Below are positions 4,603-27,699 of a stretch of DNA of 64,000 bases, one piece after another (position 1 is the first letter of the stretch; each line of letters opens with the position of its first letter). Where the stretch lies: the NCBI GenBank assembly GCA_945902075.1, contig CAMDMA010000002.1:1-64000 (forward strand), written 5' to 3'. Made by a program: the position numbers and the translations under genes. The notes under the pieces are model-generated. The model searched no databases. It was not told the origin of the DNA and saw only the letters and a list, made by a program, of their open reading frames with translations. This stretch comes from Candidatus Kuenenia stuttgartensis (lineage in GTDB: Bacteria; Planctomycetota; Phycisphaerae; Phycisphaerales; SM1A02).

Positions 4603-7029
4603 ATGCTTACCTCGATACTTGCGATCTCGCTGATTCTCACGCACACGACTCCGATCAACGAGGAACTCCGCGCGAAACCATTCGTGCTGACTTCACTGGA
4701 AGCCACGGTTTCGATCGAACTTGATCGCGTCGAGATACCGACGATCTCTGCGCGTTCGCTCGACGATGCAGCGTGTGCGCAAGGCTGGCTCCACGCGCGT
4801 GAACGATTTCTACAGATGGATCTCGCGCGCCGAGAGGCCGCTGGCGAACTTGCGGAGCTCCTCCCGGCTGGCATCGATATGGACCGCGCTGTGCGGCCAC
4901 TTCAGTTGCGCGCTGTTGCGACGCGGGCACTCGCTGCGATTCCAGCGCGACATCGGGTTCTGCTTGAGCGTTATGCCGCCGGAGTCAACGCGCAGCTCGA
5001 GCTGACAATTCCATTCGAATACAAACTGCTGAGACTCACACCGAAACGCTGGAGCGCGGAGGATTCGCTACTCGTACAACTTGGAATGGCGCGATACCTC
5101 GATGGTTCGGCGACCGTTGATCGCACGCGCGCGAAACTCTTTGATGGGCTCGCGCGCGACCTTGCGGTGTTTTTCACCTCGACGTCGGGCCCGCTCGACA
5201 TGTCGGTCGATGGATCGAAACTTCCGGAGCCGCCGCAACTCCCAACTGCTGCGCAGCTCGACCTTCGTCACATCGAAAATCCGCGTGCGGATGCTGCGTA
5301 TCGTCGTGATTTTGATAGCCACGCGGATACCTCACGCGAGACTGTGCCCGGCTCGAATGCGTTCGCCATCGCTGGCACCCGCACCAAGGATGGCCGGGCA
5401 ATCGTGGGTAACGACATGCACCTCATGCTGATGGCACCGGGCATCTGGTATCGCGTGCGAATGTGCTGGCCAGATGCGGAACTCACCGGTCTCTCGCTCC
5501 CCGGCATTCCGCTTGTTGTGCAAGGGACAAACGGCCACGTTGCGTGGGCGTTTACCAATCTCACTGCGGATCTTGCGGATCTCATCGTTGTGGAGCCGGA
5601 CCCGTCCGATGCGACGCGCTATCTCACTGCCGACGGCAGCGAGGCCTTTACGACTGAAACCGTCCTACTCGGAAGCGGCGATCGACAAGAGCCGCTGCGA
5701 CTTCGGACGACTCGGTTCGGCCCCGTTGTAGACACGGTTGACGGCCGACCAGTCGCGTTGCGTTGGGCGAGCCTTCTGCCCGGCGGTCTCGACTGCGGAC
5801 TCTTTGATCTTGTAAACGCGACGACGCTCGAAAGCGCGCTGGAAACAGCGCGTGCCTGGAATGGCCCACCACAGAACACGCTCATTGCATCGAGCGACGG
5901 ACGAATCGGATGGACGATCGCAGGCGCTCTTCCAAATCGCGCAACCCGCACTCCGGCCCCAGTTTCATGGCGAGATGCTCCAGAATGGGATGGCATCGTT
6001 CCGCCAGCACGAAAGCCGATGATTGTCGATCCTTCGTCAGGTGTACTCACGAGTGGCAACCAACTTTGCATGGCGCCAGGCGGACTTGCGGGCGTGATCG
6101 GTGCCGACGAAGCAGCTGGCGACCGCGCGCGTCGACTGCGTGAGCTTCTCACAACGAGGAGCGATTGGAGTGAGCCGGAACTCCACGCGATTCAACTTGA
6201 TACCCATTCGGCTCGACTTGTGCGTTGGCGTGACGCGTTGATCGCAGTGCTCGACGAAACTCGAGATGCGGCCGAATCGAACCTCGACGCCGACGACATT
6301 CGCGATGCGCTTGAATCTCTTCGCGCTTGGAACGGGCGAACGGACATCGCTGAAGCGGCACCCGTGCTCCTCGATTTCGTGCGCCGGGCGGTACGAACCG
6401 AGTATGCGCGTGCACTCGCTGGCTTGCCCGAGATGCGCGAGTCAGACATCGGCCGAGAGGCAATTGAAGCAGCGCTCGAAGACGAAGCGCTGTTGCGCAT
6501 GATCGAGTCGAAACCGGATCACTTGCTACCGGGGCCATTCAACTCGTGGCACATATTCCTCGCGAATGCCCTCGCCGACGCGGCGACCCGCGCGCGCGAT
6601 GCGAACGGCGCGTTCCGTACGCGTGGTGAAGACAACCGCGCGTGGATTCGCCATCCAGCAGCGGACGCACTCGGCCCAGCGGCGCGCTTGGCTGAAATGC
6701 CGAAAGCGCCGCTCCCGGGCCATCCAACTTCGGTGCGCGTACAAACGCCGCGATTTGGCGCGAGCCAGCGCTCAGTGGTTTCACCCGCGCACCTTGATGA
6801 CGCGATTCTCGTTACCCCGTGTGGGCAATCGGGTATGCCAACATCCCCGCACTTCCGAAGTCTTCATCAATATTGGCAAGACGGCACGTCATACCCGCTG
6901 TTGCCAGGCGAGGCGACCGCTCGCATCGAACTCCTTCGTGAGCCACCAGCGATACCGGCGACTCCGGCAACACCAGCAATGAACTCCGCTCCTCCGGAAG
7001 CGAAAGCCCGCGAAGGCGAGGGTGTCTGA
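4603..7029 (+). CDS. Penicillin acylase family Ntn-hydrolase
   Basis: An 808-residue enzyme of the penicillin/acyl-homoserine-lactone/aculeacin acylase family (Ntn hydrolases that self-cleave into two chains). The alpha-chain part has IELDRVEIPTISARSLDDAA and GWLHARERFLQMDLARREAAGELAEL. The autoproteolytic site is in VPGSNAFAIAG, making Ser251 the likely new N-terminal nucleophile of the beta chain, followed by GNDMHLMLMAPGIWY and GIPLVVQGTNGHVAWAFTN, all strong family blocks. A weak N-terminal hydrophobic stretch suggests export to the periplasm. The C-terminus ends in a Pro/Ala-rich tail. It follows the propeller gene by 9 bases. Which amide is cleaved cannot be told from sequence. Confidence 0.88.
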   Translation: MLTSILAISLILTHTTPINEELRAKPFVLTSLEATVSIELDRVEIPTISARSLDDAACAQGWLHARERFLQMDLARREAAGELAELLPAGIDMDRAVRPLQLRAVATRALAAIPARHRVLLERYAAGVNAQLELTIPFEYKLLRLTPKRWSAEDSLLVQLGMARYLDGSATVDRTRAKLFDGLARDLAVFFTSTSGPLDMSVDGSKLPEPPQLPTAAQLDLRHIENPRADAAYRRDFDSHADTSRETVPGSNAFAIAGTRTKDGRAIVGNDMHLMLMAPGIWYRVRMCWPDAELTGLSLPGIPLVVQGTNGHVAWAFTNLTADLADLIVVEPDPSDATRYLTADGSEAFTTETVLLGSGDRQEPLRLRTTRFGPVVDTVDGRPVALRWASLLPGGLDCGLFDLVNATTLESALETARAWNGPPQNTLIASSDGRIGWTIAGALPNRATRTPAPVSWRDAPEWDGIVPPARKPMIVDPSSGVLTSGNQLCMAPGGLAGVIGADEAAGDRARRLRELLTTRSDWSEPELHAIQLDTHSARLVRWRDALIAVLDETRDAAESNLDADDIRDALESLRAWNGRTDIAEAAPVLLDFVRRAVRTEYARALAGLPEMRESDIGREAIEAALEDEALLRMIESKPDHLLPGPFNSWHIFLANALADAATRARDANGAFRTRGEDNRAWIRHPAADALGPAARLAEMPKAPLPGHPTSVRVQTPRFGASQRSVVSPAHLDDAILVTPCGQSGMPTSPHFRSLHQYWQDGTSYPLLPGEATARIELLREPPAIPATPATPAMNSAPPEAKAREGEGV

Positions 7030-7055: not shown

Positions 7056-9509
7056 TTAATACGCCCACTCAAAGAGCAACGCCGCAAGATCCTGGGCGTT
7101 GACCAGCCCATCACCAGTGAGGTCGTAGGTGTCATTCGCGGTGTTCCACACACTGAGGAGAAGCGACAGATCGCCTGCACCAACTTGGGAGTCATTATCG
7201 AAATCGGCGGGCGAATCCGTTCCGCCTCGTGCGAACGCCTCCGCCGGAATGACCGCAGTCGCCACGCCAGGGCCCGCCCAGGACGCCACGAGACCCGCTG
7301 AGCCAGTTCGCTCGAAATACTCCACACGAAGCGCATGACGCCCTACTGCGAGTCCAACGACCCCAGATCGCGCGGTCATCGCGTGCATGCCGTCATGCGA
7401 CACAACCAGCGTGTCGCCGATCCACAACTTTGAACCTTCATCCGACTCAAGCGTGAAGGTCCAACCGCCACTTGCCGGAACATCGAGCCAACCTTCGAAG
7501 ACGGCGCCAACGTTGTCCGCGCGCCCGCTTGAAGCGACATTGGATGATGACTTTGCGAAGTCGATGGCTGGCACAACATCGGTGGCATACGGGGTCAACG
7601 CAGCGAAATTCGGCAGTACTGTCGGTGAGGTGAGGGCGTAGTAGGCGACATCAAGTTGCGCGCTCGTGTTCGATGGATTTTCCGGCTCGCGCAGCTGCGA
7701 AACCTCGATCGACACCGATCCCGTGGAAGTCTGTCCCGATGCATCGAGAAGTGTGTACGAGAACACATCGGTCGCGGCATACGCTGGGTCCGACATGGTG
7801 TAGAGAAGCTCGTCACGCCCTCCAACGCCGGTGCCAACGCTTCGACTGATGGTGGCTCCCGCAAATGTTGTCGCGTTGAAGCCGCCGATCTCAACAGTCT
7901 CACAGTTGAACTCGATGTCGTTTGCGAGCACATCAATGACCACCGGGATCCCGGTGTACGCGTTGGCCGTATCAGCGACAGCGATAGGATTGCGTGCCGT
8001 TCCCAGATAGTTGCACGAGATTGAATTGAGCCGCGCGAGAATCACATCGGCGCTCTGCGGGTGGAATCGCAACTGAATGTTCGAGAGCCCACCGGCGCAG
8101 GTGTGGCAATAGGACATGATCGTTCCATTGTTCGCGTTCGCAGCACCACAATCCTGTGGCGACAAACCGCAACCATCGATCAATGGGTTGACTTCGTGCG
8201 TGTGATATGCACCAAAATTGTGACCAAGCTCATGCGCGACCACGAAGAGATCCCAGTTCTGTCCATCGTTGTCGACAAGCGGCGTAGGAAAGTAACCGGA
8301 GAGATTTGCAGAAAGCCCGTAGCCTGCGTTGGTGTTTCCGCTCTGAGCAAGACTCGCGCAAAGGCCGGGGCGATACGCGATTCCGCCGCCGAGGCTCCGA
8401 CCCGACAACATGTGCGCGAGGTCGCGCTGAATCGGAATCATGGTGGAGTCCCACACCGACTTGAACTGCACAAGTTGTTCGAGCGTTCCGGTCGCCGTCC
8501 ACGGATCGGCAGGCTCCGGCCAAAGCCGCAGGTAAGAGGCCGACACACGCACACCCACATCCCGCGAGTAAATTGCGGTGAGCGCCGACGCAAGCGTCGC
8601 GACATACCCGCTCGCGGCAGCCGTATCGCCGCCAAAGCGCTGGAGAAACTCGTAGTCGGTGTCGTAGGCGACGCGCACTTGTCGACATGGCGGTGGCGCA
8701 CCAGCAACACCACCTTCGGCGAGAGCTTGCGCTGCGGAGTCTTCAAGAAATGCAGCGTCAGGCGTTTCACATGTCCACTCGGGCGGCTGCATCACCCCAT
8801 CCGGAAGCCCGGCTAGGTCGTACGACACCGTTGGCAAGCCCGATCCGTACGGACCGCTTGAGATGAGGTAGGTTCGGCCCGGAATTTCGACATAGCCGTA
8901 GACCCCTGCCTCAGATGAAGCGAGGAATGCGTGACTGTCGTCGATCCCCTCAACCTTCCCCACGAGGAATGCTCCCGTGAAAGGAACAGCTGCGGTTTCC
9001 AGTGCACGAAGCCCGCGGGCGCCCGGAGCTGGCCGCGAAGCCTCGATGCGGGCGTCCGCTTCAAACGGGCGGATCGGCACGAGTTCGAGTGCGACCTCGT
9101 GAAACGGACCGAGCGGTACATCCTCAAGAATGCCGCCACCGGCTTCCGTAAAGTCGAGGAGTCGATCTTGGTCTATGGCCACCGCGACGACTGTTGGCCT
9201 CAGCATCCGCGGCACCGCGCGCTGTGAGGCAAGTTGACGGAGCACCATGCGCTCAGAAGCCCGCTGCGGCCGTCCCTGCAGGACAACGGCTCCAGAATGT
9301 GCCAGCGCGGCGCGCAGGACTGGCGTGAGGCTTGCTCCGTTGGAGGCCTGCGTCGACGCTGGCCTTGAGGAAGGCATCGAGGAAGGCATCGAGGAAGGCA
9401 TCGAGGAAGGCATCGAGGAAGGCATCGAGGCTGGCATCGAGGCCGGCATCGAGGCCGGCAACAGCAATGCGGCAACGGCTCCGAGAAACGCGACCGGTGA
9501 TGCAGACAT
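7056..9509 (-). CDS. Secreted reprolysin-like zinc metalloprotease with PA14 domain and dockerin-like tail
   Basis: An 817-residue secreted protein. After a signal peptide (hydrophobic run FLGAVAALLLPA) comes a tetrapeptide repeat of Met-Pro-[AS]-Ser encoded by a 12-bp tandem array at about 9367-9459. The catalytic domain has the metzincin motif HELGHNFGAYH (first His near residue 426) followed by the MSYC Met-turn, as in reprolysin/M12B-like peptidases. Later come a cadherin-like block (DVLANDIEF), a PA14-like domain (FTLESDEGSKLWIGDTLVV) and two C-terminal EF-hand/dockerin-like loops (ADFDNDSQVGAGDLSLLL and TGDGLVNAQDLAALLFEWAY). The start could instead be the ATG at 9560, which would lengthen the signal peptide's N-region. 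It converges with the acylase gene. Confidence 0.85.
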   Translation of the reverse strand: MSASPVAFLGAVAALLLPASMPASMPASMPSSMPSSMPSSMPSSMPSSRPASTQASNGASLTPVLRAALAHSGAVVLQGRPQRASERMVLRQLASQRAVPRMLRPTVVAVAIDQDRLLDFTEAGGGILEDVPLGPFHEVALELVPIRPFEADARIEASRPAPGARGLRALETAAVPFTGAFLVGKVEGIDDSHAFLASSEAGVYGYVEIPGRTYLISSGPYGSGLPTVSYDLAGLPDGVMQPPEWTCETPDAAFLEDSAAQALAEGGVAGAPPPCRQVRVAYDTDYEFLQRFGGDTAAASGYVATLASALTAIYSRDVGVRVSASYLRLWPEPADPWTATGTLEQLVQFKSVWDSTMIPIQRDLAHMLSGRSLGGGIAYRPGLCASLAQSGNTNAGYGLSANLSGYFPTPLVDNDGQNWDLFVVAHELGHNFGAYHTHEVNPLIDGCGLSPQDCGAANANNGTIMSYCHTCAGGLSNIQLRFHPQSADVILARLNSISCNYLGTARNPIAVADTANAYTGIPVVIDVLANDIEFNCETVEIGGFNATTFAGATISRSVGTGVGGRDELLYTMSDPAYAATDVFSYTLLDASGQTSTGSVSIEVSQLREPENPSNTSAQLDVAYYALTSPTVLPNFAALTPYATDVVPAIDFAKSSSNVASSGRADNVGAVFEGWLDVPASGGWTFTLESDEGSKLWIGDTLVVSHDGMHAMTARSGVVGLAVGRHALRVEYFERTGSAGLVASWAGPGVATAVIPAEAFARGGTDSPADFDNDSQVGAGDLSLLLSVWNTANDTYDLTGDGLVNAQDLAALLFEWAY
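9367..9459. repeat. 12-bp tandem repeat inside metalloprotease signal region
   Basis: About seven to eight near-identical copies of gaggaaggcatc (plus strand), with the last copies drifting to gaggctggcatc and gaggccggcatc. Because 12 is a multiple of three, on the minus strand this encodes Ser-Met-Pro-[AS] repeats just after the signal peptide. Confidence 0.95.
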
Positions 9510-9770
9510 GACCAATGGACCCTCGCCGAGACTCTGAACGACGCACAAACGACGTTGCATCTGTGTCTTCGGCAATTCAACTCCGTCCCGGCCCAAATCT
9601 CTCACCACTTCCTCTCAGTCGACGAATAACCCCGGATCAGGCGCGAAAGTCGCGGTAGAAAGCAACGAGCACCGCGCGAATAGCGCGCAAGTCGTCGCGA
9701 TCGAATCCCGATGAAAGGGGGAATCCGAGATTCGCGCCAAACGGGAGTTTCGGTTATCTTTCCGCCCCTC

Positions 9771-12271: not shown

Positions 12272-12459
12272 CGAGATCTCCTGAGGTGGGCATCGGCTCC
12301 GAAACCTCGGAAGCCGCGATCGCACCAAGCAGCCATCATGGCGCCTTGGTGGAAGCGCGGAATGTATCGGTTTCAGGTGCGATGCGTCAACCGCGCGAAA
12401 TCTCCGATCAACCAAAGCATCACACGAGCCACTGCCTCGAAACTCGTATACTTCGCCCC

Positions 12460-12715
12460 GCTTGGGCGTCCGAGGTTTCCTCGGCGTTGCACCGCAATGT
12501 GCAACGAGGGAAGGCGGTGAAAATCCGCCACGGTCGCGCCGCCGTGACAGGATTGATCGTGCGGGCTTGCCTGACACGTTCACTCGCGAGATGGCTGGAC
12601 ACTGGTCGAACACGACCGATGTCTGGCAGCCACTGGTGGTCTTCACCGACCGCTGGGAAGGCGTCAAGCGCGCCGCGAAAGCGGATCCTGAAGTCGGAAG
12701 ACCTACCCAAGCATC
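12460..12715 (+). promoter_or_regulatory. Cobalamin (adenosylcobalamin-type) riboswitch
   Basis: All the hallmark blocks occur in the right order. They are gagggaa followed by ggtgaaaatccgcc and acggtcgcgccgccgtgaca (the GGTGAAANTCC...CGCNNCNGTGACA core), then gcagccactggtgg and ctgggaaggcgtc, and finally the B12 box aagtcggaagacctacc at 12691-12707. Downstream are hairpins ggcatccactcggatgcc and gcgctcccggtcggagcgc, and the cggaggag ribosome site at about 12783-12790 can pair with the preceding gagctcccgg. No T run follows the hairpins, so control of translation initiation is the more likely mechanism. The first regulated start codon is at 12797. The 5' boundary is approximate. Confidence 0.93.
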
Positions 12716-12796
12716 CCGGCATCCACTCGGATGCCTCTGAGCGCTCCCGGTCGGAGCGCGCTTCCACCCGGGCGCGAGCTCCCGGAGGAGCGTTCT

Positions 12797-13768
12797 ATGC
12801 GCAAATGGCGCGTGTTGTGTCTGTTGTCGGTTCCACTTCCCGTCCGGCAAACTTCTTGGCGCTGCACCCTCTCCGCGCTGCCGATGTTGCTGTGCGGGGC
12901 TCATGCAGCTGCGGATTCGCCGTTCGCCACAGCAGTGGTGTCTTTCGTCCCCGGTGTCGGTGGCGTTGCTGGTTTTTCGAATCCCGCGACGGCACTGGGT
13001 TCACCCGAACGCTTCTCAGGCGAAGGCCTTGTACCCGGCTGCGTGACTCCATTCCAACCGGCGTTCCGCCCGAATGAACTCGTCTCGCTTGGTGTCGGCG
13101 GACGTCTCGTCGTGGCGTTTGATCACGATGTGATCGACGATCCGCGCAATCCGTTCGGCATTGACTTACTTGTGTTTGGCAATGCGTTTTTCACCGACTC
13201 CTCGTTTGGGTTCGGCACGGTTGCCGGGCTTGCTGCCGAGGGCGGGACGATCGCCGTGAGTGATGATGGAATCGCATGGACCATTGTTCCAGCGCTTGCT
13301 GCCGACGGACTCTTTCCAACGCTCGGATACCTAGATGTGGAGCCGTATGCTGTCGCCGCTGGCATTGTTGAAAGTGATTTCCTGCGCCCGGTTGATCCAA
13401 CAATCACGATGGGTGACCTCTCGGGACTCGACTATCCGGCGGTACTCGAGCGCTACGACGGTTCGGGTGGTGGAGCCGGGGTTGATCTCGGCGCACTTGG
13501 CTTGAAACGCGTGCGCTATGTGCGCATCGAGGGACCATCGGTCAGCGGCCTGACTCCTGAGATTGATGCGTTTGCTGATGTTGCGCCGCTCTCGCCCGAT
13601 GCCGATCTTGATCACGATGGCGTGGTCGATGCAACGGATCTCGCGTTGCTCCTTGCCGCATGGGGGAGCGACAACCTTGCTGTCGATCTCGATGGCGATG
13701 GCGCGATCGGCGCCAGCGACCTCGCACTTCTTCTTGGCGCTTGGGGCTCGAACGGCGGTGGAGCTTGA
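12797..13768 (+). CDS. Cobalamin-riboswitch-controlled secreted protein with dockerin-like tail
   Basis: A 323-residue protein preceded by a strong GGAGGAG ribosome site. A long signal peptide ends near GAHAAADSP. The mature domain has no family I can name. Conserved-looking features are FVPGVGGVAGF, GSPERFSGEG, VAFDHDVIDDPRNPFGIDLLVFGNAFF, a DDGIAWTIVP strand pair, and RYVRIEGPSVSGLTPEIDAFADV; the last gives a lectin- or discoidin-like beta-sandwich impression. The C-terminus carries two EF-hand/dockerin-like loops, each followed by LLL-x-AWG. It is the first gene of the riboswitch unit and ends in a TTGA overlap with the next gene. Cobalamin control plus export suggests a role in capturing or handling corrinoids at the cell surface, but that is inference. 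Confidence 0.8.
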   Translation: MRKWRVLCLLSVPLPVRQTSWRCTLSALPMLLCGAHAAADSPFATAVVSFVPGVGGVAGFSNPATALGSPERFSGEGLVPGCVTPFQPAFRPNELVSLGVGGRLVVAFDHDVIDDPRNPFGIDLLVFGNAFFTDSSFGFGTVAGLAAEGGTIAVSDDGIAWTIVPALAADGLFPTLGYLDVEPYAVAAGIVESDFLRPVDPTITMGDLSGLDYPAVLERYDGSGGGAGVDLGALGLKRVRYVRIEGPSVSGLTPEIDAFADVAPLSPDADLDHDGVVDATDLALLLAAWGSDNLAVDLDGDGAIGASDLALLLGAWGSNGGGA

Positions 13769-14550
13769 AGCGCGCAGGTCTCACTGTCGTCGAGATGCTC
13801 ATGGTGATCGGTGTGATCGGCATGCTGCTCGCACTCGTTGTTCCGGCATCGTCGAGCGTTCGCGCGTCCGCGCGCTCCGCGAGTTGCCAATCAAACTTGC
13901 GTCAACTTGGGCTCGCTGCGTCGACCTACGCGTCACAGAGTAAAGACCGGTTTCCGGCTGCCATCCTGTTTGAAATTGGATCGGCGGGGATGATCACGAA
14001 GGCATGGGATTTTGAGCAGCGCGCCGACGGCACCGTCCGACCAAGCGCGCTGTGGGACTTCATCGATGGTGGCGGGAAAGTGCAGCAATGCCCGGAATTC
14101 GAAGGAGCCTCAACCTTCGGTGCTGATCCATCCACAGGCTACAACTACAACACGACCTACATCGGTGCTGAAGGACGCTTTCCTGAGCTCGATGACGCAG
14201 GTGTCTGGCGCGACGGATGGAGCGTTGCGCGACGCGGGCTTGCAAGCGGCCAGTTTCGCCGAACTTCGACAACGGCTCTCTTTGGAGAAGGCGGCTGGCG
14301 CGGTGGAGCAAACAAGTTCATGCGTGCACCGATGGCGGCTGTCGAAAACGACCTACCCACGGTGTATGGCGGCGGCCAGTCGTTCCGTCACGGAGGTTGC
14401 ACCCACGTGTGCTATCTCGACGGGCATGTTGGCGGATCGTGCGACTGCTGCGAGGGCGCCCTTGCGCAGCCAGCGTTCCTGCATGACATCCTCGGCTACC
14501 CGGCCAACGGTTTTCTTGCCGACGACGATGCACCCTACGACCCGAGATAA
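13765..14550 (+). CDS. Prepilin-like protein with H-X9-DG motif
   Basis: A 261-residue type IV pilin/pseudopilin-like protein. Translation most likely starts at TTG 13765, which overlaps the upstream TGA (TTGA) and has GGTGGAG a few bases before it. The N-terminus MKRAGLTVVEMLMVIGVIGM is a class III signal, with cleavage after Gly5 and Glu at +5 (Glu10), followed by a hydrophobic helix. Near the C-terminus RHGGCTHVCYLDGHVGG contains the planctomycete H-X9-DG processing-associated motif, followed by a Cys cluster (SCDCCEG). It lies inside the cobalamin-controlled unit, which is unusual for this very large planctomycete family. The Cys cluster next to an Fe-S gene hints at metal or redox binding, which is inference. 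Confidence 0.82.
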   Translation: MKRAGLTVVEMLMVIGVIGMLLALVVPASSSVRASARSASCQSNLRQLGLAASTYASQSKDRFPAAILFEIGSAGMITKAWDFEQRADGTVRPSALWDFIDGGGKVQQCPEFEGASTFGADPSTGYNYNTTYIGAEGRFPELDDAGVWRDGWSVARRGLASGQFRRTSTTALFGEGGWRGGANKFMRAPMAAVENDLPTVYGGGQSFRHGGCTHVCYLDGHVGGSCDCCEGALAQPAFLHDILGYPANGFLADDDAPYDPR

Positions 14551-14552
14551 GC

Positions 14553-14768
14553 ATGGCAAAGGGAATCGAAATCGATCGCTGCGTTTGCTTCGACACGTCT
14601 TTCAGTGCATTGAAAGAACGGCTCAACGGTCGCGTGCGCACGATCGAAGAGATCCGTGCTGAATTCGGCTGCAGTTCTTGTTGCGGCATCTGTCAGCCAT
14701 ACATTGAACGCATGCTCGCCACGGGTGAAACGGTGTTTCACGAGATCATCGTCGCGCGTCCTTCGTAA
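14553..14768 (+). CDS. BFD-like [2Fe-2S]-binding protein
   Basis: A 71-residue protein. Cys10-x-Cys12 in DRCVCFD and a second cluster with Cys40, Cys43, Cys44 and Cys47 in GCSSCCGICQPY match the CXC...CX2C arrangement of bacterioferritin-associated ferredoxin (BFD/Fer2_BFD) domains; Cys10/Cys12/Cys44/Cys47 give the usual spacing of about 31 residues. It starts two bases after the stop of the pseudopilin gene and so belongs to the cobalamin-riboswitch unit. A small electron carrier could support reductive handling of corrinoids or cobalt, but nothing in the sequence proves that. It converges with mutL. Confidence 0.78.
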   Translation: MAKGIEIDRCVCFDTSFSALKERLNGRVRTIEEIRAEFGCSSCCGICQPYIERMLATGETVFHEIIVARPS

Positions 14769-24336: not shown

Positions 24337-25032
24337 TCAGAACGGCCGAGCCGCACGAGGTGCGCCGAGGATCTCAGCGATCAAAAAGGCCTCGCGAACG
24401 CGGGCGGGACTTCGCAACGCTTCTCGGATCCCAAGCGCGGGTACGCGCAGATCTTTGCCGACCTTCAGGCGCTCCGATCGCGCGATCTCGATGCCCTCGA
24501 GGCCGACGATCAAACTCTTACTGATCTTGGCCTCGGCAGCCCTCACCCGATCGACCGATTGGGCAAGCCGCGCGCGGCTCTGCATGGCATCAGATTCCTC
24601 GAAATCATTTGGACCACGATCGAGGGTGCCACCCGCAGTCGAACCACCCGCAGTCGAACCACGTGCAGATGAGCCACGTGCAGTCGCGGGAAGGCGAACC
24701 GTTCCTGCGGGCTTCGCGGTCTTGACAGCCTTGACTGGCTTTCCAGCCGATGGACCAATCGGCGAGCGAGCGATCGGCACAGCTTTGGGAAACCGCGCAT
24801 CCGCTTGAAAACGCGCCGATTGAGCCGATTGAGCCGATTGCGTCGAACCCTGGACATTTCCTGCGACACGGGTCTTCGGCTGTGCCGTGCGCGGAGTCGC
24901 CGAGAGAGGGTCAGAAACGCCAGGCACGGCAGCCCCCGCTTGCCCGGCGGCGTTCTGCTGCGCTCGCTTTGCGAGCGCGCGAACAATCGCCTGGAAGATT
25001 ACGATCGCGATGATCCAGAGGAGTGAATTCAC
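24337..25032 (-). CDS. Unknown single-TM protein, last gene of the ABC transporter unit
   Basis: A 231-residue protein starting with one transmembrane helix (LLWIIAIVIFQAIVRALAKRA), then a long low-complexity Ala/Pro/Ser/Gly/Lys linker (about residues 30-135) with short repeats such as QSAQSAQSA and GSTAGGSTAGG, and a helical C-terminal part (ESDAMQSRARLAQSVDRVRA...). The GTG start overlaps the stop of the ABC ATPase gene (GTGA). Not recognised as any family. Topology suggests an inner-membrane anchored protein with a flexible cytoplasmic or periplasmic arm. The linker DNA carries a 15-bp tandem repeat (ccacccgcagtcgaa) at about 24629-24660. Confidence 0.6.
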   Translation of the reverse strand: MNSLLWIIAIVIFQAIVRALAKRAQQNAAGQAGAAVPGVSDPLSATPRTAQPKTRVAGNVQGSTQSAQSAQSARFQADARFPKAVPIARSPIGPSAGKPVKAVKTAKPAGTVRLPATARGSSARGSTAGGSTAGGTLDRGPNDFEESDAMQSRARLAQSVDRVRAAEAKISKSLIVGLEGIEIARSERLKVGKDLRVPALGIREALRSPARVREAFLIAEILGAPRAARPF

Positions 25033-25811
25033 GAACGCATCCTAACGCCCGCGCCGAGCCGTGGTGCGAGCCAACATGGCGCTTCGACCATTTCGTGGCG
25101 ATACGCCTCGCTCAGGATGGACGGCACCAACACCGATGCTGCGTCGCCAGATGCCAAGACGCGACCCTCGCGCATCACGATCGCATCGGTCGCAATGGCC
25201 CGCGCAAGCCCGGGATCGTGCAATGTCAGCACCGCAGCGCTCCCGGTCGCGGCCGATGTCACGCGCCGACAGAGCGCACCAATGATGCGCGCGACCTCAG
25301 CGGGGTCAACCCCACTCAACGGCTCGTCGAGGAGCCAAACTCCCCCACTGTCGAGTTGAGCGAACGCGCGCGCAATGGCAACGCGCTGGCGCTCGCCCCC
25401 AGAAAGCGTGTGAAACGTTTGATCCGCTCGCAGCGACAACCCCACATCCTCGAGTGCGCGGCCGACCGCCGCTTCATTTGTTCCGATCGCGTGGCGACCG
25501 AGTCGCACGACCTCGCGCGCGGTGAACGAAGCCGAAACCTCAGGGCGCTGAGGAACGAAGGCGCGGCGCGTTGCACGGGCTGCAGCTGTTCCGTGCTGAT
25601 CAACCCCAGCAAGAGTCACTGTCCCGGCGTGTCCACCTGGCTCGATGACTTGCGCGAGCACGCGGAGGAGCGACGTCTTCCCGCAGCCGTTTGCGCCGAC
25701 AATCGCAGTGATGGTGCCACGACGGACCGCAAGCGAAACGCAGTCGAGCGCGCGTGTCGCGCCGTAGCGAAGGCTCACGCACTCGGCGGCAAGAACGATG
25801 TCGGGCGTCAT
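25029..25811 (-). CDS. ABC transporter ATPase, BtuD/FecE-like
   Basis: A 260-residue ATPase with Walker A IVGANGCGKTSLLRVL, Q-loop in AFVPQRPEVSAS, signature LSGGERQRVAIARAFAQL, Walker B VWLLDEPLSGVDP and switch His in LTLHDPGLA. The family (siderophore, haem and cobalamin importers) is inferred from the neighbouring FecCD-type permease. The start at 25811 overlaps the permease stop as ATGA; an ATG three codons upstream is possible. The C-terminus overlaps the downstream unknown gene. Confidence 0.88.
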   Translation of the reverse strand: MTPDIVLAAECVSLRYGATRALDCVSLAVRRGTITAIVGANGCGKTSLLRVLAQVIEPGGHAGTVTLAGVDQHGTAAARATRRAFVPQRPEVSASFTAREVVRLGRHAIGTNEAAVGRALEDVGLSLRADQTFHTLSGGERQRVAIARAFAQLDSGGVWLLDEPLSGVDPAEVARIIGALCRRVTSAATGSAAVLTLHDPGLARAIATDAIVMREGRVLASGDAASVLVPSILSEAYRHEMVEAPCWLAPRLGAGVRMRS

Positions 25812-26794
25812 CGATTCCATCGGCCGCTCCGAAGAAGCCAGAGAAACGCGGGCCCGCCAGCAAGGGCCGTCACCACGCCGACCGGAAGTCGGCCCGTACC
25901 GAGGTCGATGGCTTGACGCGCTGTATCAGCGGTGACGAGGAGTGCCGCACCCGCGAGCGCCGAACCCGCAACAAGCACCGTGTGGCGCGGCCCAACCAGT
26001 CGACGCGCGATGTGCGGACCGATCAAGCCCACGAAGCCAATCGGCCCTGCGTACGCAACCGCAACCGCTGCGAGGAACCCACCCACTCCAAAAAGTATGC
26101 GCCGAAGTCGGACGATATCAACGCCGCTCGCGAGCGCTTCATCATCCGTGAAGCACGCCACATCAAGCGCGCGCGCGTTCGAAGCAAGCACCAGCCAGCC
26201 GGCGACCACACTCGCGAGAAGTGTCCAAAACGCTGTGCGCCCAGGGAGTTCTGGGAGTCGCCCTGCCATCCATGAGAGCAAATCACCGCGAAGACCGTGG
26301 GGAACCATTTGCTCAACGAGCATCGTGCCCGCGCTGAAGATTGCACCAACGATCACACCGGAGAGGACGAGCGTCGTGGGATCATGCCCTGCGCGCGATC
26401 GACCAAGCCAACCGACAAGAAGGAGGGTGGCGAAGGCTCCAAGCATCGCACCAGCGATTTCGCCACCGAAACTGACTGCAGAAACACCAGCGGCGTAGGC
26501 GCCCGCGAGTACGAGCGCAACGCCAAAGCCCGCCCCGCTTGAGATTCCGAGGACAAAAGGCGATGCCAATGGATTTCGGAGAAGTACCTGAAGTGCAAGT
26601 CCCGCGAGTCCGAGCGCAGCGCCGAGAGATACAGCGGAGCAGACCGCGGTCGTGCGGAGTTCGAGTACCTCGCTTGCGGGAATGGCGAGGGTGAGTCGAA
26701 GCTCTCCCCCATCTGCAACGGGTCCAAGCGCGAGCCGACATCCAGCCGCCGTGCAGAGTGCCGTCAAAAGCAGTGCGAACCCGCGCGCGCTCAC
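25808..26794 (-). CDS. FecCD/BtuC-family ABC permease
   Basis: A 328-residue polytopic membrane protein. Hallmarks are ELRTTAVCSAVSLGAALGLAGLALQVLLRNPLASP compressed around the first helices (the R...G...LAGxxxQxxLRNPLAxP motif), then GISSGAGFG, VLSGVIVGAIFSA, and GPIGFVGLIGPHIARRLVGPRH in the ATPase-coupling region. This is the permease class of B12, ferric-siderophore and haem importers. GTG start overlapping the binding-protein stop (GTGA). About nine to ten helices are readable. Confidence 0.9.
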   Translation of the reverse strand: MSARGFALLLTALCTAAGCRLALGPVADGGELRLTLAIPASEVLELRTTAVCSAVSLGAALGLAGLALQVLLRNPLASPFVLGISSGAGFGVALVLAGAYAAGVSAVSFGGEIAGAMLGAFATLLLVGWLGRSRAGHDPTTLVLSGVIVGAIFSAGTMLVEQMVPHGLRGDLLSWMAGRLPELPGRTAFWTLLASVVAGWLVLASNARALDVACFTDDEALASGVDIVRLRRILFGVGGFLAAVAVAYAGPIGFVGLIGPHIARRLVGPRHTVLVAGSALAGAALLVTADTARQAIDLGTGRLPVGVVTALAGGPAFLWLLRSGRWNR

Positions 26795-27699
26795 CGCGCG
26801 GCCTCGACAATTGCGCGAAGTTCGTCGCGCTTCGCAATCGCGGCAAGGCTTGGCGAAAGCAACTCGGGAACCGCACGCGCTGCGATCCGCGGCGCATCAC
26901 CCTCAGGCCACGGCAACGCACGGAGCATCGCGTCGATACGCTCCGCGCCAGCATCGCCATCCGAGATTCCAATGATGACTGCAGGCTTCGCAGCGATCAT
27001 CGACTCGGCCGACAGTTCGACATAGCCCGGGCGGTTCAACTGGTTGCCCACACCCGCACTCTCGAGCAACTCGTGCAAGTAATTCCCGGTTCCAACCGCG
27101 AGAAACGGATCGGCGGAAACAACGAGAAACACACGCGGAATGGCAGCAGTTTCGCCAGATTGATCAAGCGTTCGTTTCGTCGCCAGAAACGTACGCACCG
27201 CCGCGAGCCGTGAATCAAGCTGGGTACGAGCGGGCGCAGGTAACGGCTCGAAGACACCAACGATATCTTCGAGGAGTAAGCCGAGATCGGTGAGCGAATC
27301 GAGTCGGCGCGCGACCACTTTGATGCCCTGTTCCTCGCACACGCGACGCAACGCAGGATCAACTCCTGCGAGTGGCGGTTGAACGAAGAGCACCTCGGGT
27401 GCGACAAGCCCGATTCTCTCCGCGTCAAAATCGCGAAGGTCACCGACAACTGGAATTGCAGCGGGGATAGTGCGACAGAACGGACTGCGTCCGACGATGT
27501 GCTCAGCGAGTCCAAGTTCGACAAGCGAATCTGTGATCGCTGGACTTGTCGATGCGACGCGGGGCGACGGGACAACGCGCGAAACTGATTGCACAGCGAC
27601 CGGCGAGCCGCGACCAAAAAGAGCCCAAAGAATGAAGGTCGCGAAGAGAAGCCCCATCATGCGTTGCACGTAGGAAACCCGCGTCGCCGCCAAGGTCAT
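26791..27699 (-). CDS. Periplasmic substrate-binding protein, BtuF/FepB-like
   Basis: A 302-residue class III binding protein with an N-terminal signal-anchor (MMGLLFATFILWALFGRG). Conserved blocks are RVVPSPRVASTSPAITDSLVELGLAEHIVG, VVGDLRDFDAERIGLVAPEVLFVQ (the D-x-E-x-[IL]-x-x-L-x-P-[DE]-[LV] motif), and VELSAESMIAAKPAVIIGI. Substrate (cobalamin, haem or siderophore) cannot be read from sequence. It is second in a five-gene chain with 4-nt overlaps. No cobalamin riboswitch lies upstream of this unit. Confidence 0.85.
   Translation of the reverse strand: MTLAATRVSYVQRMMGLLFATFILWALFGRGSPVAVQSVSRVVPSPRVASTSPAITDSLVELGLAEHIVGRSPFCRTIPAAIPVVGDLRDFDAERIGLVAPEVLFVQPPLAGVDPALRRVCEEQGIKVVARRLDSLTDLGLLLEDIVGVFEPLPAPARTQLDSRLAAVRTFLATKRTLDQSGETAAIPRVFLVVSADPFLAVGTGNYLHELLESAGVGNQLNRPGYVELSAESMIAAKPAVIIGISDGDAGAERIDAMLRALPWPEGDAPRIAARAVPELLSPSLAAIAKRDELRAIVEAAR

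Follow-up and report, generated by a model that had tools for sequence, protein, structure and literature searches.

Vitamin B12 (cobalamin) is too large to pass ordinary porins, with BtuB the textbook route by which it crosses the outer membrane. Here we analyse a stretch of 64,000 nucleotides (nt) from Candidatus Kuenenia stuttgartensis, a planctomycete of the class Phycisphaerae (GenBank assembly GCA_945902075.1, contig CAMDMA010000002.1, positions 1 to 64,000 of the forward strand; hereafter the window, its source genome being termed G000), in which a cobalamin riboswitch precedes three coupled genes for a predicted exported protein, a pseudopilin, and a small [2Fe-2S] protein. The domain of the first protein is a distant relative of the B12-binding domain of BtuH, and the whole unit is, judging from comparative sequence data and structural models, probably a B12-acquisition operon that would be off in the presence of B12, pairing surface capture with a dedicated pseudopilin and feeding the transporter BtuFCD. 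Compared with the BtuBFCD system of E. coli, the window shares BtuFCD-like genes, whereas no BtuB was identified in G000.

The closest described protein is BtuH2 of Bacteroides thetaiotaomicron (7biz), whose C-terminal domain binds B12 (PMC8941943). That report places the BtuH-type domain in gut Bacteroidetes and a few Firmicutes, and describes the BtuH proteins of Bacteroides as lipoproteins mostly encoded with btuB (PMC8941943). Gene 1 of the window resembles BtuH2 and BtuGH in its fold, in a sequence bridge that links it to them, in lying at a riboswitch-controlled B12 locus, in its modular build with varied extra domains, and in an invariant Asn on the phosphate side of the pocket. It differs from them in the lack of a lipobox by eye, the dockerin- or PEP-CTERM-like tail, the absence of btuB from the operon, the coupling to a pseudopilin, and the lack of conservation at Trp577.

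A further group, DUF4465/BtuJ (IPR027828), consists of secreted beta-rich B12 binders (PMC13398666, PMC12751083), with one tested binder coming from Mucisphaera calidilacus, likewise a planctomycete of the class Phycisphaerae (PMC13398666). Gene 1 shares secretion (judged by eye) and a beta-rich build with these proteins; its membership of DUF4465 found no support, with no Pfam DUF4465 match at E <= 1 for gene 1 or for 43 domain sequences in searches whose HMMER filters drop most weak matches. BtuJ structures are also absent among the fold matches listed by Foldseek and VIA, which excludes nothing.

Gene 2 shares with the DUF1559 (SBP_bac_10) prepilins of planctomycetes the prepilin signature, the long N-terminal helix, and a motif near the C terminus that we take to be the one named H-X9-DG. 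Its subfamily differs from DUF1559 at large, which Pfam classes as a family of unknown function, in its link to cobalamin riboswitches and in the NGFLSxDDxxYDPR-like motif with which its main form ends. In Planctopirus and Gemmata, pili-like fibres on crateriform structures bind dextran, with energy-dependent dextran uptake into the planctomycete periplasm by a mechanism that the authors leave open (PMC5394234). The fibres offer a precedent for uptake through the planctomycete outer membrane that requires energy and may involve fibres; their substrate is a polysaccharide, and they are linked to the gene 2 pilin by analogy only.

The riboswitch and the three-gene unit

The features of the unit are as follows.

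12447-12724, + strand: cobalamin riboswitch aptamer (RF00174; cmscan, 49.7 bits, E 2e-9, model positions 1-189 of 189)
12739-12795, + strand: putative expression platform, a stem pairing the Shine-Dalgarno sequence (ViennaRNA prediction)
12797-13768, + strand: gene 1, 323 amino acids (aa), BtuH-type domain and dockerin-like tail, export judged by eye (open reading frame, Shine-Dalgarno sequence, homologues)
12887-13594, + strand: BtuH-type domain, predicted to bind B12 (AlphaFold2, VIA, Foldseek, sequence bridge)
13601-13744, + strand: dockerin type I-like tail (PF00404, above cut-off)
13765-14550, + strand: gene 2, DUF1559-type pseudopilin (PF07596, alignment A2, phylum search, AlphaFold2 model)
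14553-14768, + strand: gene 3, 71-aa BFD-type [2Fe-2S] protein (PF04324)

The original prediction, made from the sequence of the window, placed a complete cobalamin riboswitch upstream of these genes, and the covariance search agrees, with a score well above the gathering threshold (31.5 bits) and all 189 model positions covered. It is the sole RF00174 match found in G000 when 150 of 171 candidates were scored. A competing hairpin (12741-12759) is predicted between the aptamer and gene 1, with a minimum free energy from ViennaRNA of -35.2 kcal/mol when the Shine-Dalgarno sequence is paired and -29.1 kcal/mol when the competing hairpin is forced, and the predicted platform is consistent with translational control of gene 1.

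Gene 1 runs from the ATG at 12797 to the TGA at 13768, preceded by the Shine-Dalgarno sequence GGAGGAG at 12784-12790. The TTG start of gene 2 at 13765 overlaps the gene 1 stop as TTGA, and the ATG of gene 3 lies two bases past the stop of gene 2, the open reading frame coordinates thereby confirming the earlier view that the three genes form one unit. Gene 3 had been read as a small [2Fe-2S] protein, and matches the Pfam family PF04324 (Fer2_BFD) above its cut-off (28.2 bits against 26).

Relationship of gene 1 to BtuH

Searches of Pfam and NCBIfam with gene 1 return nothing besides the dockerin-like tail, which matches PF00404 with 23.8 bits (cut-off 22.9, E 5.3e-5) and NF041540 with 24.9 bits, under the cut-off of 29. 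An alignment of 43 domain sequences (A1), searched against Pfam at E <= 1, gave five scattered single-member matches of E 0.04 or weaker. The domain had been called unfamiliar, and to these family collections it is so; its fold is not, the two best fold matches being BtuGH and BtuH2. An AlphaFold2 model built from A1 (predicted local distance difference test (pLDDT) score 95.2, predicted template modelling score 0.91) retrieved a single PDB chain at E <= 0.001 in Foldseek, namely 8blw_B (BtuG1 of the BtuB1-BtuG1 complex, E 2.3e-5). The top rows from VIA are 8blw_B (BtuG1/BtuGH, residues 388-660) and 7biz_A (BtuH2, residues 315-592), both with Z 12.6, the alignments showing 23-24% identity over 146-151 aligned residues with a root-mean-square deviation of 3.5-3.8. 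PAPP-A occupies the next row at Z 9.5, followed by carbohydrate-binding modules at Z about 9, so that fold prediction, proposed at the outset as a check, puts two B12-binding proteins at the top with a lead of 3 Z units.

By sequence, homology to BtuH emerges only via intermediates. The window domain finds the domains of L075 (genome G278) and L078 (G011) at E 6.2e-11 and E 1.1e-7, and in sequence searches of the PDB these in turn find 8blw_B at E 3.2e-18 and E 1.5e-14, and 7biz_A at E 2.6e-9 and E 9.6e-11, respectively; with L049 as a third intermediate the PDB search was empty. Searched directly against the PDB by sequence, the window protein returns three dockerin-domain sequences and a cellulosomal glycoside hydrolase, with BtuH not among them, and the homology therefore rests on the fold together with the two-step bridge through L075 and L078.

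Contact residues were mapped by hand, taking BtuH2 numbering as the chain index in the printed alignments plus 100, an offset inferred because Gln333, Asn399, Phe401, Trp577, and Leu578 then fall on the right letters. Asn399, which contacts the phosphate, corresponds to N99 of A1, invariant in 43/43 sequences and lying within a shared D-x5-N motif. The position of Phe401 holds Phe in 32 of the 43 sequences, and Gln333 is kept in L075 and changed in both the window domain and L078.

Gene 1 had been thought to have no relation to known B12 genes, a claim that finds no support: its domain belongs, though distantly, to a B12-binding fold known from work on Bacteroides thetaiotaomicron. On the strength of the modelled fold and the aligned sequences, the protein very probably captures cobamides. 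No lipobox is seen by eye in its first 45 residues and its operon holds no btuB, and we therefore speak of a BtuH-type domain and not of BtuH. At least two relatives (L055 and L073) end by eye in PEP-CTERM-like tails in place of dockerin.

Conservation across domain-encoding loci

The unit was compared over 56 distinct loci encoding the domain (the window, 22, and 33 further stretches; L087 duplicates L039 and was removed, and G380 is represented by L045), some of them weak (L085, an open reading frame of 3843 codons with E about 1e-4) or fragments (L053). RF00174 matches lie upstream on the same strand in 50/56 loci, 97-2794 nt before the domain match, so that homologues are repeatedly preceded by cobalamin riboswitches, as the original prediction had proposed to check. 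Three of the misses fall at contig ends, with 317, 74, and 20 bases upstream in L037, L053, and L070. A pseudopilin follows the domain gene in 50/56 loci as well, either close behind it or past an intervening propeller gene, being absent from L077, L078, L081, L084, L085, and L086, of which five have the riboswitch and two (L078 and L081) offer little downstream sequence, in which no pilin was found. As the unit is kept over these 56 loci, chance association is excluded.

The association also holds when viewed from the riboswitch. Among 22 carrier genomes (genomes encoding the domain) chosen over the class, with 72 first-look candidates scored per genome, 24 cobalamin riboswitches were found, 22 of which precede the domain unit; the remaining two are in G209 and G348, and none was found in G376. 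Because limited numbers of candidates were scored here and elsewhere (72 or 150 for the riboswitch, the 6 best per genome for the pilin), weaker copies can be missing. The third gene is less widespread, with a BFD-type gene after the pilin in 21/56 loci (22 if the duplicate is counted; L032 matches weakly, where its contig ends) and another seen by eye at L103. Among the genomes numbered here, every BFD-type case falls in the window's own order.

Some loci hold further B12 genes. In L050 the domain gene stands with a pilin, a BtuF-BtuC fusion, and an ATP-binding cassette (ABC) ATPase, and in L082 with a pilin, CobT, CobS, and BtuF- and BtuC-like genes. The L050 record is labelled Verrucomicrobia, and the BtuH-type domain extends from gut Bacteroidetes and a few Firmicutes to Planctomycetota and at least one record so labelled.

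Additional modules accompany the domain in several loci. A PQQ-type beta-propeller gene (cluster c8) lies between the domain gene and the pilin in nine loci as called by a simple gene caller, including L042, L043, L048, L062, L064, L065, and L073, the last with a dockerin tail on the propeller (Pfam); in L075, L079, and L080 the domain comes after other proteins that by eye resemble propellers. Propellers near the domain gene recall the BtuG propeller beside BtuH in Bacteroides. A second unannotated domain, with a motif around YWxGxGxNxAxxVVDF, is found in 11 loci, either ahead of the BtuH-type domain or joined to it in one protein, among them L074 (6533-7090, + strand), L071, L072, L052, L069, and L082, and it is N-terminal in L049, L050, L051, L066, and L067; neither Pfam nor NCBIfam gives a match for the L074 or the L049 protein. 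In L046 (about 7162-7753, + strand) it comes immediately after a second cobalamin riboswitch (6759-7022), and this second domain is possibly another B12-binding module. L033, titled Limnohabitans sp., shows the gene order of the Phycisphaerae loci (clusters c7, c2, domain gene, pilin) and 72% identity to the window domain, and looks like a mislabelled or misbinned contig.

A riboswitch-linked pseudopilin subfamily

Gene 2 matches PF07596/DUF1559 with 31.5 bits (cut-off 23.3). Among 27 members of the pilin family, DUF1559 matches 16 and N_methyl 19 at E <= 0.001, the window protein matching N_methyl only below the cut-off. Gly5 and Glu10 of the prepilin signature are invariant in the pilin alignment (A2), Glu10 being residue 5 after cleavage at the usual site. 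The AlphaFold2 model (pLDDT 91.9) shows a long N-terminal helix (residues 8-58), and A2 shows a conserved C-terminal domain of ~200 residues with invariant G125, Y126, Y128, N129, R208, and D219 and a nearly invariant H209. The description of gene 2 as a prepilin-like protein with a Cys cluster is right for the window, although the cluster varies among relatives, family-wide conservation being limited to C41 (invariant) and C109 (at least 90%); the extra cysteines were for that reason dropped as a candidate cofactor site.

With an alignment as query and the 6 best candidates taken per genome, the pilin was found in 69/392 genomes of the phylum at E <= 1e-25. Below E 1e-59 there are 22 matches, in 21 genomes, every one of which adjoins the domain gene. 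For 44 of the 69, the best pilin match is not beside a domain gene found in the initial search. From these 44, of which nine belong to genus g78, 13 pilin loci were fetched, hand-picked and not a random sample, and 12/13 have RF00174 upstream on the same strand, the exception being L093 from g78. A divergent BtuH-type domain is encoded in six (L094, L095, L099, L100, L101, and L103), and no BtuH-type gene was recognised in seven (L093, L096, L097, L098, L102, L104, and L105), six of which have the riboswitch. L098, L096, and L097 are unmistakable B12 operons, with BluB, CobQ, CobO, and CobT beside the pilin in L098, and a BtuF-like protein, a BtuC-like protein, and an ATPase (by eye) in L096, where the pilin ends the gene order. 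The pilin subfamily thus keeps its link to cobalamin riboswitches and B12 genes in loci without a recognised BtuH-type gene as well, and we hold with good confidence that the pilin serves B12 acquisition.

In L097 (4404-9048), two neighbouring units each have a cobalamin riboswitch, that of the first preceding the pilin and that of the second a BtuB-like receptor. The best model for this receptor is that of the TonB-dependent B12 receptor (289 bits, under the cut-off of 599.7), and it is followed by ExbB-, ExbD-, and TonB-like proteins (by eye). Directly after the pilin in L093, L098, L102, and L105 comes a small protein (about 100-155 aa) that by eye resembles a lipoprotein; these loci, from two planctomycete families (f31 and f72), have no recognised BtuH-type domain.

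B12 need and import genes

Genes resembling btuFCD lie 10-13 kb from the riboswitch unit.

26791-27699, - strand: BtuF-like periplasmic binding protein (PF01497, 35.0 bits, cut-off 27.5)
25808-26794, - strand: BtuC-like permease (PF01032, E 1.4e-64)
25029-25820, - strand: BtuD-like ABC ATPase, overlapping the permease gene (best NCBIfam matches below cut-offs)

The permease is the only strong FecCD match in G000, the second match reaching 31 bits, and the best NCBIfam matches of the ATPase are haem, F420-0, and corrinoid ABC ATPases. G000 encodes the B12-dependent methionine synthase MetH (TIGR02082, 1235.8 bits, cut-off 1010.85) as well as a protein carrying the B12 domain of methylmalonyl-CoA mutase, and the search for CobB/CobQ amidotransferases (PF07685) gave no match in G000 or in six further carriers. 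With MetH present and CobB/CobQ not found, the source organism probably needs to import B12. Across the 22 carriers, a full-length PF07685 match occurs in one (G331) and none in the other 21, and B12-binding-domain proteins and a member of the BtuC-like permease family occur in all.

Elsewhere in the window, 7056-9608 on the - strand encodes a protein with N-terminal tandem repeats of Ser-Met-Pro type (SMPASMPSSMPSSMP...) and a C terminus that is dockerin-like by eye.

Proposed mechanism and alternatives

We propose that B12, on binding the riboswitch, would hide the Shine-Dalgarno sequence of gene 1. When made, the gene 1 protein would be exported and, anchored to the cell surface by its dockerin-like tail (PEP-CTERM-like in some relatives), bind cobalamin. 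The pseudopilin, anchored in the inner membrane and either polymerised or tethered, may carry or hand B12, or the loaded capture protein, over the outer membrane and periplasm, doing the work done elsewhere by BtuB, and BtuFCD would complete import in an organism that probably depends on imported B12. It is a weak guess that the BFD-type protein serves as electron donor for reducing imported cob(III)alamin. Of the corrinoid-capture or remodelling system first suggested, capture is favoured by the BtuH-type domain and by riboswitch and pilin counts of 50/56 each, with nothing in the window pointing to remodelling. Corrinoid remodelling in G000 was set aside as unsupported by window genes; the pair CobT/CobS was met in the L082 operon, and G000 was not searched for it. 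Of the suggested pseudopilin/dockerin basis, the pseudopilin is a conserved partner, and the dockerin tail is not constant.

Several observations weigh against this interpretation. The TM-score of the Foldseek match between the domain and 8blw_B, taken by query length, is only 0.43, a profile of the domain family matches nothing in the PDB by sequence, and the position of BtuH2 Trp577 is not Trp in the planctomycete domain, so that the corrin side of the pocket differs. L058 and L085, which have room upstream, give no RF00174 match, and L051 has only an AdoCbl-II match (RF01689; 295-369, + strand) several kb upstream of its domain gene. L077, L084, L085, and L086 lack a pilin despite about 4.5 kb of downstream sequence, three of these four having the riboswitch. 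A Foldseek search with the pilin model finds no PDB match at E <= 0.001, so there is no structural sign of the pilin binding or moving B12. The BtuD- and BtuF-like proteins of the window are linked to B12 by no model that scores above its cut-off, and partial PF07685 matches (about <=100/196 positions), which we take for other amidotransferases, occur in 14 carriers, 11 of them above the family cut-off. Finally, G000 does encode one TonB-dependent receptor, of 1002 aa, on another contig.

That receptor leads to the alternative that survives best, in which gene 1 captures B12 but import proceeds via an ordinary TonB-dependent receptor or a porin, the pilin only helping to secrete the capture protein or to display or assemble it on the surface. 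We regard this as a serious possibility, somewhat short of probable. It gains from the occurrence of at least one receptor in 17/35 carriers, from the adjacency in L097 of a riboswitch-linked pilin and a BtuB-like receptor with its own riboswitch, and from the secretins, able to serve secretion, in 16/16 carrier genomes searched. However, the best model for the G000 receptor is TonB-Xanth-Caul, below its cut-off, with the B12 receptor model not listed at E <= 1e-5, and the sole riboswitch found in G000 (an assembly 97% complete) does not control it. Furthermore, whilst receptors occur at E <= 1e-8 in 289/392 genomes of the phylum, none is found at that threshold in 18/35 carriers; in the 22 carriers chosen over the class, plug and barrel searches agree on a receptor in eight and detect none in 14. 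The pilin is, moreover, riboswitch-linked also where no BtuH-type gene is recognised (e.g. L096, L098, and L102). Of 12 genomes of the same class initially without a domain match, nine have receptors, and six (G231, G242, G325, G057, G127, and G388) proved to hold a divergent BtuH-type gene, with receptors in 4/6 of these against 5/6 of the others. All these receptor comparisons are weak, being confounded by kinship, and receptor absence clusters in one order.

At the other extreme is TonB-independent, pseudopilus-driven B12 import in planctomycetes, with BtuH-type capture and the pseudopilin drawing B12 through a secretin to BtuF, a proposal that we advance tentatively and consider doubtful. 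Rather unlikely, too, is a pseudopilin acting as a periplasmic, inner-membrane-anchored B12-binding relay that forms no pilus, an arrangement suggested by the conserved ~200-residue C-terminal domain with its invariant residues and by the BtuF-BtuC-ATPase-pilin order of L096; against it, the complete prepilin signature is kept with its invariant Glu, as expected of a processed, polymerised protein. That the unit is a general surface programme, such as adhesion or polysaccharide attachment, responding to B12 status and not handling B12 is highly improbable, for although DUF1559-type prepilins are abundant (67 first-look candidates in G000) and carbohydrate-binding modules also match the domain fold, the two best fold matches are B12-binding proteins well clear of the next row, and the pilin subfamily is found with BtuFC-like, BtuB-like, CobT/CobS, and BluB-CobQ-CobO genes. 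A B12-acquisition operon with surface capture and a dedicated pseudopilin remains the reading that we prefer.

Significance

The capture of B12 by this fold is known from Bacteroides, while the planctomycete BtuH-type protein and the riboswitch-controlled pseudopilin appear new, literature searches (partly at title level) having found neither a published BtuH-type protein in Planctomycetota nor a cobalamin-riboswitch-controlled pseudopilin. The unit makes two questions testable, namely how the carriers with no detected TonB-dependent receptor take in B12 and which function is served by one branch or more of the large DUF1559 pilin family. If true, pseudopilus-driven import would be, to our knowledge, the first vitamin importer built from type IV pilus parts, and it would fit the fibre-associated uptake suggested for dextran.

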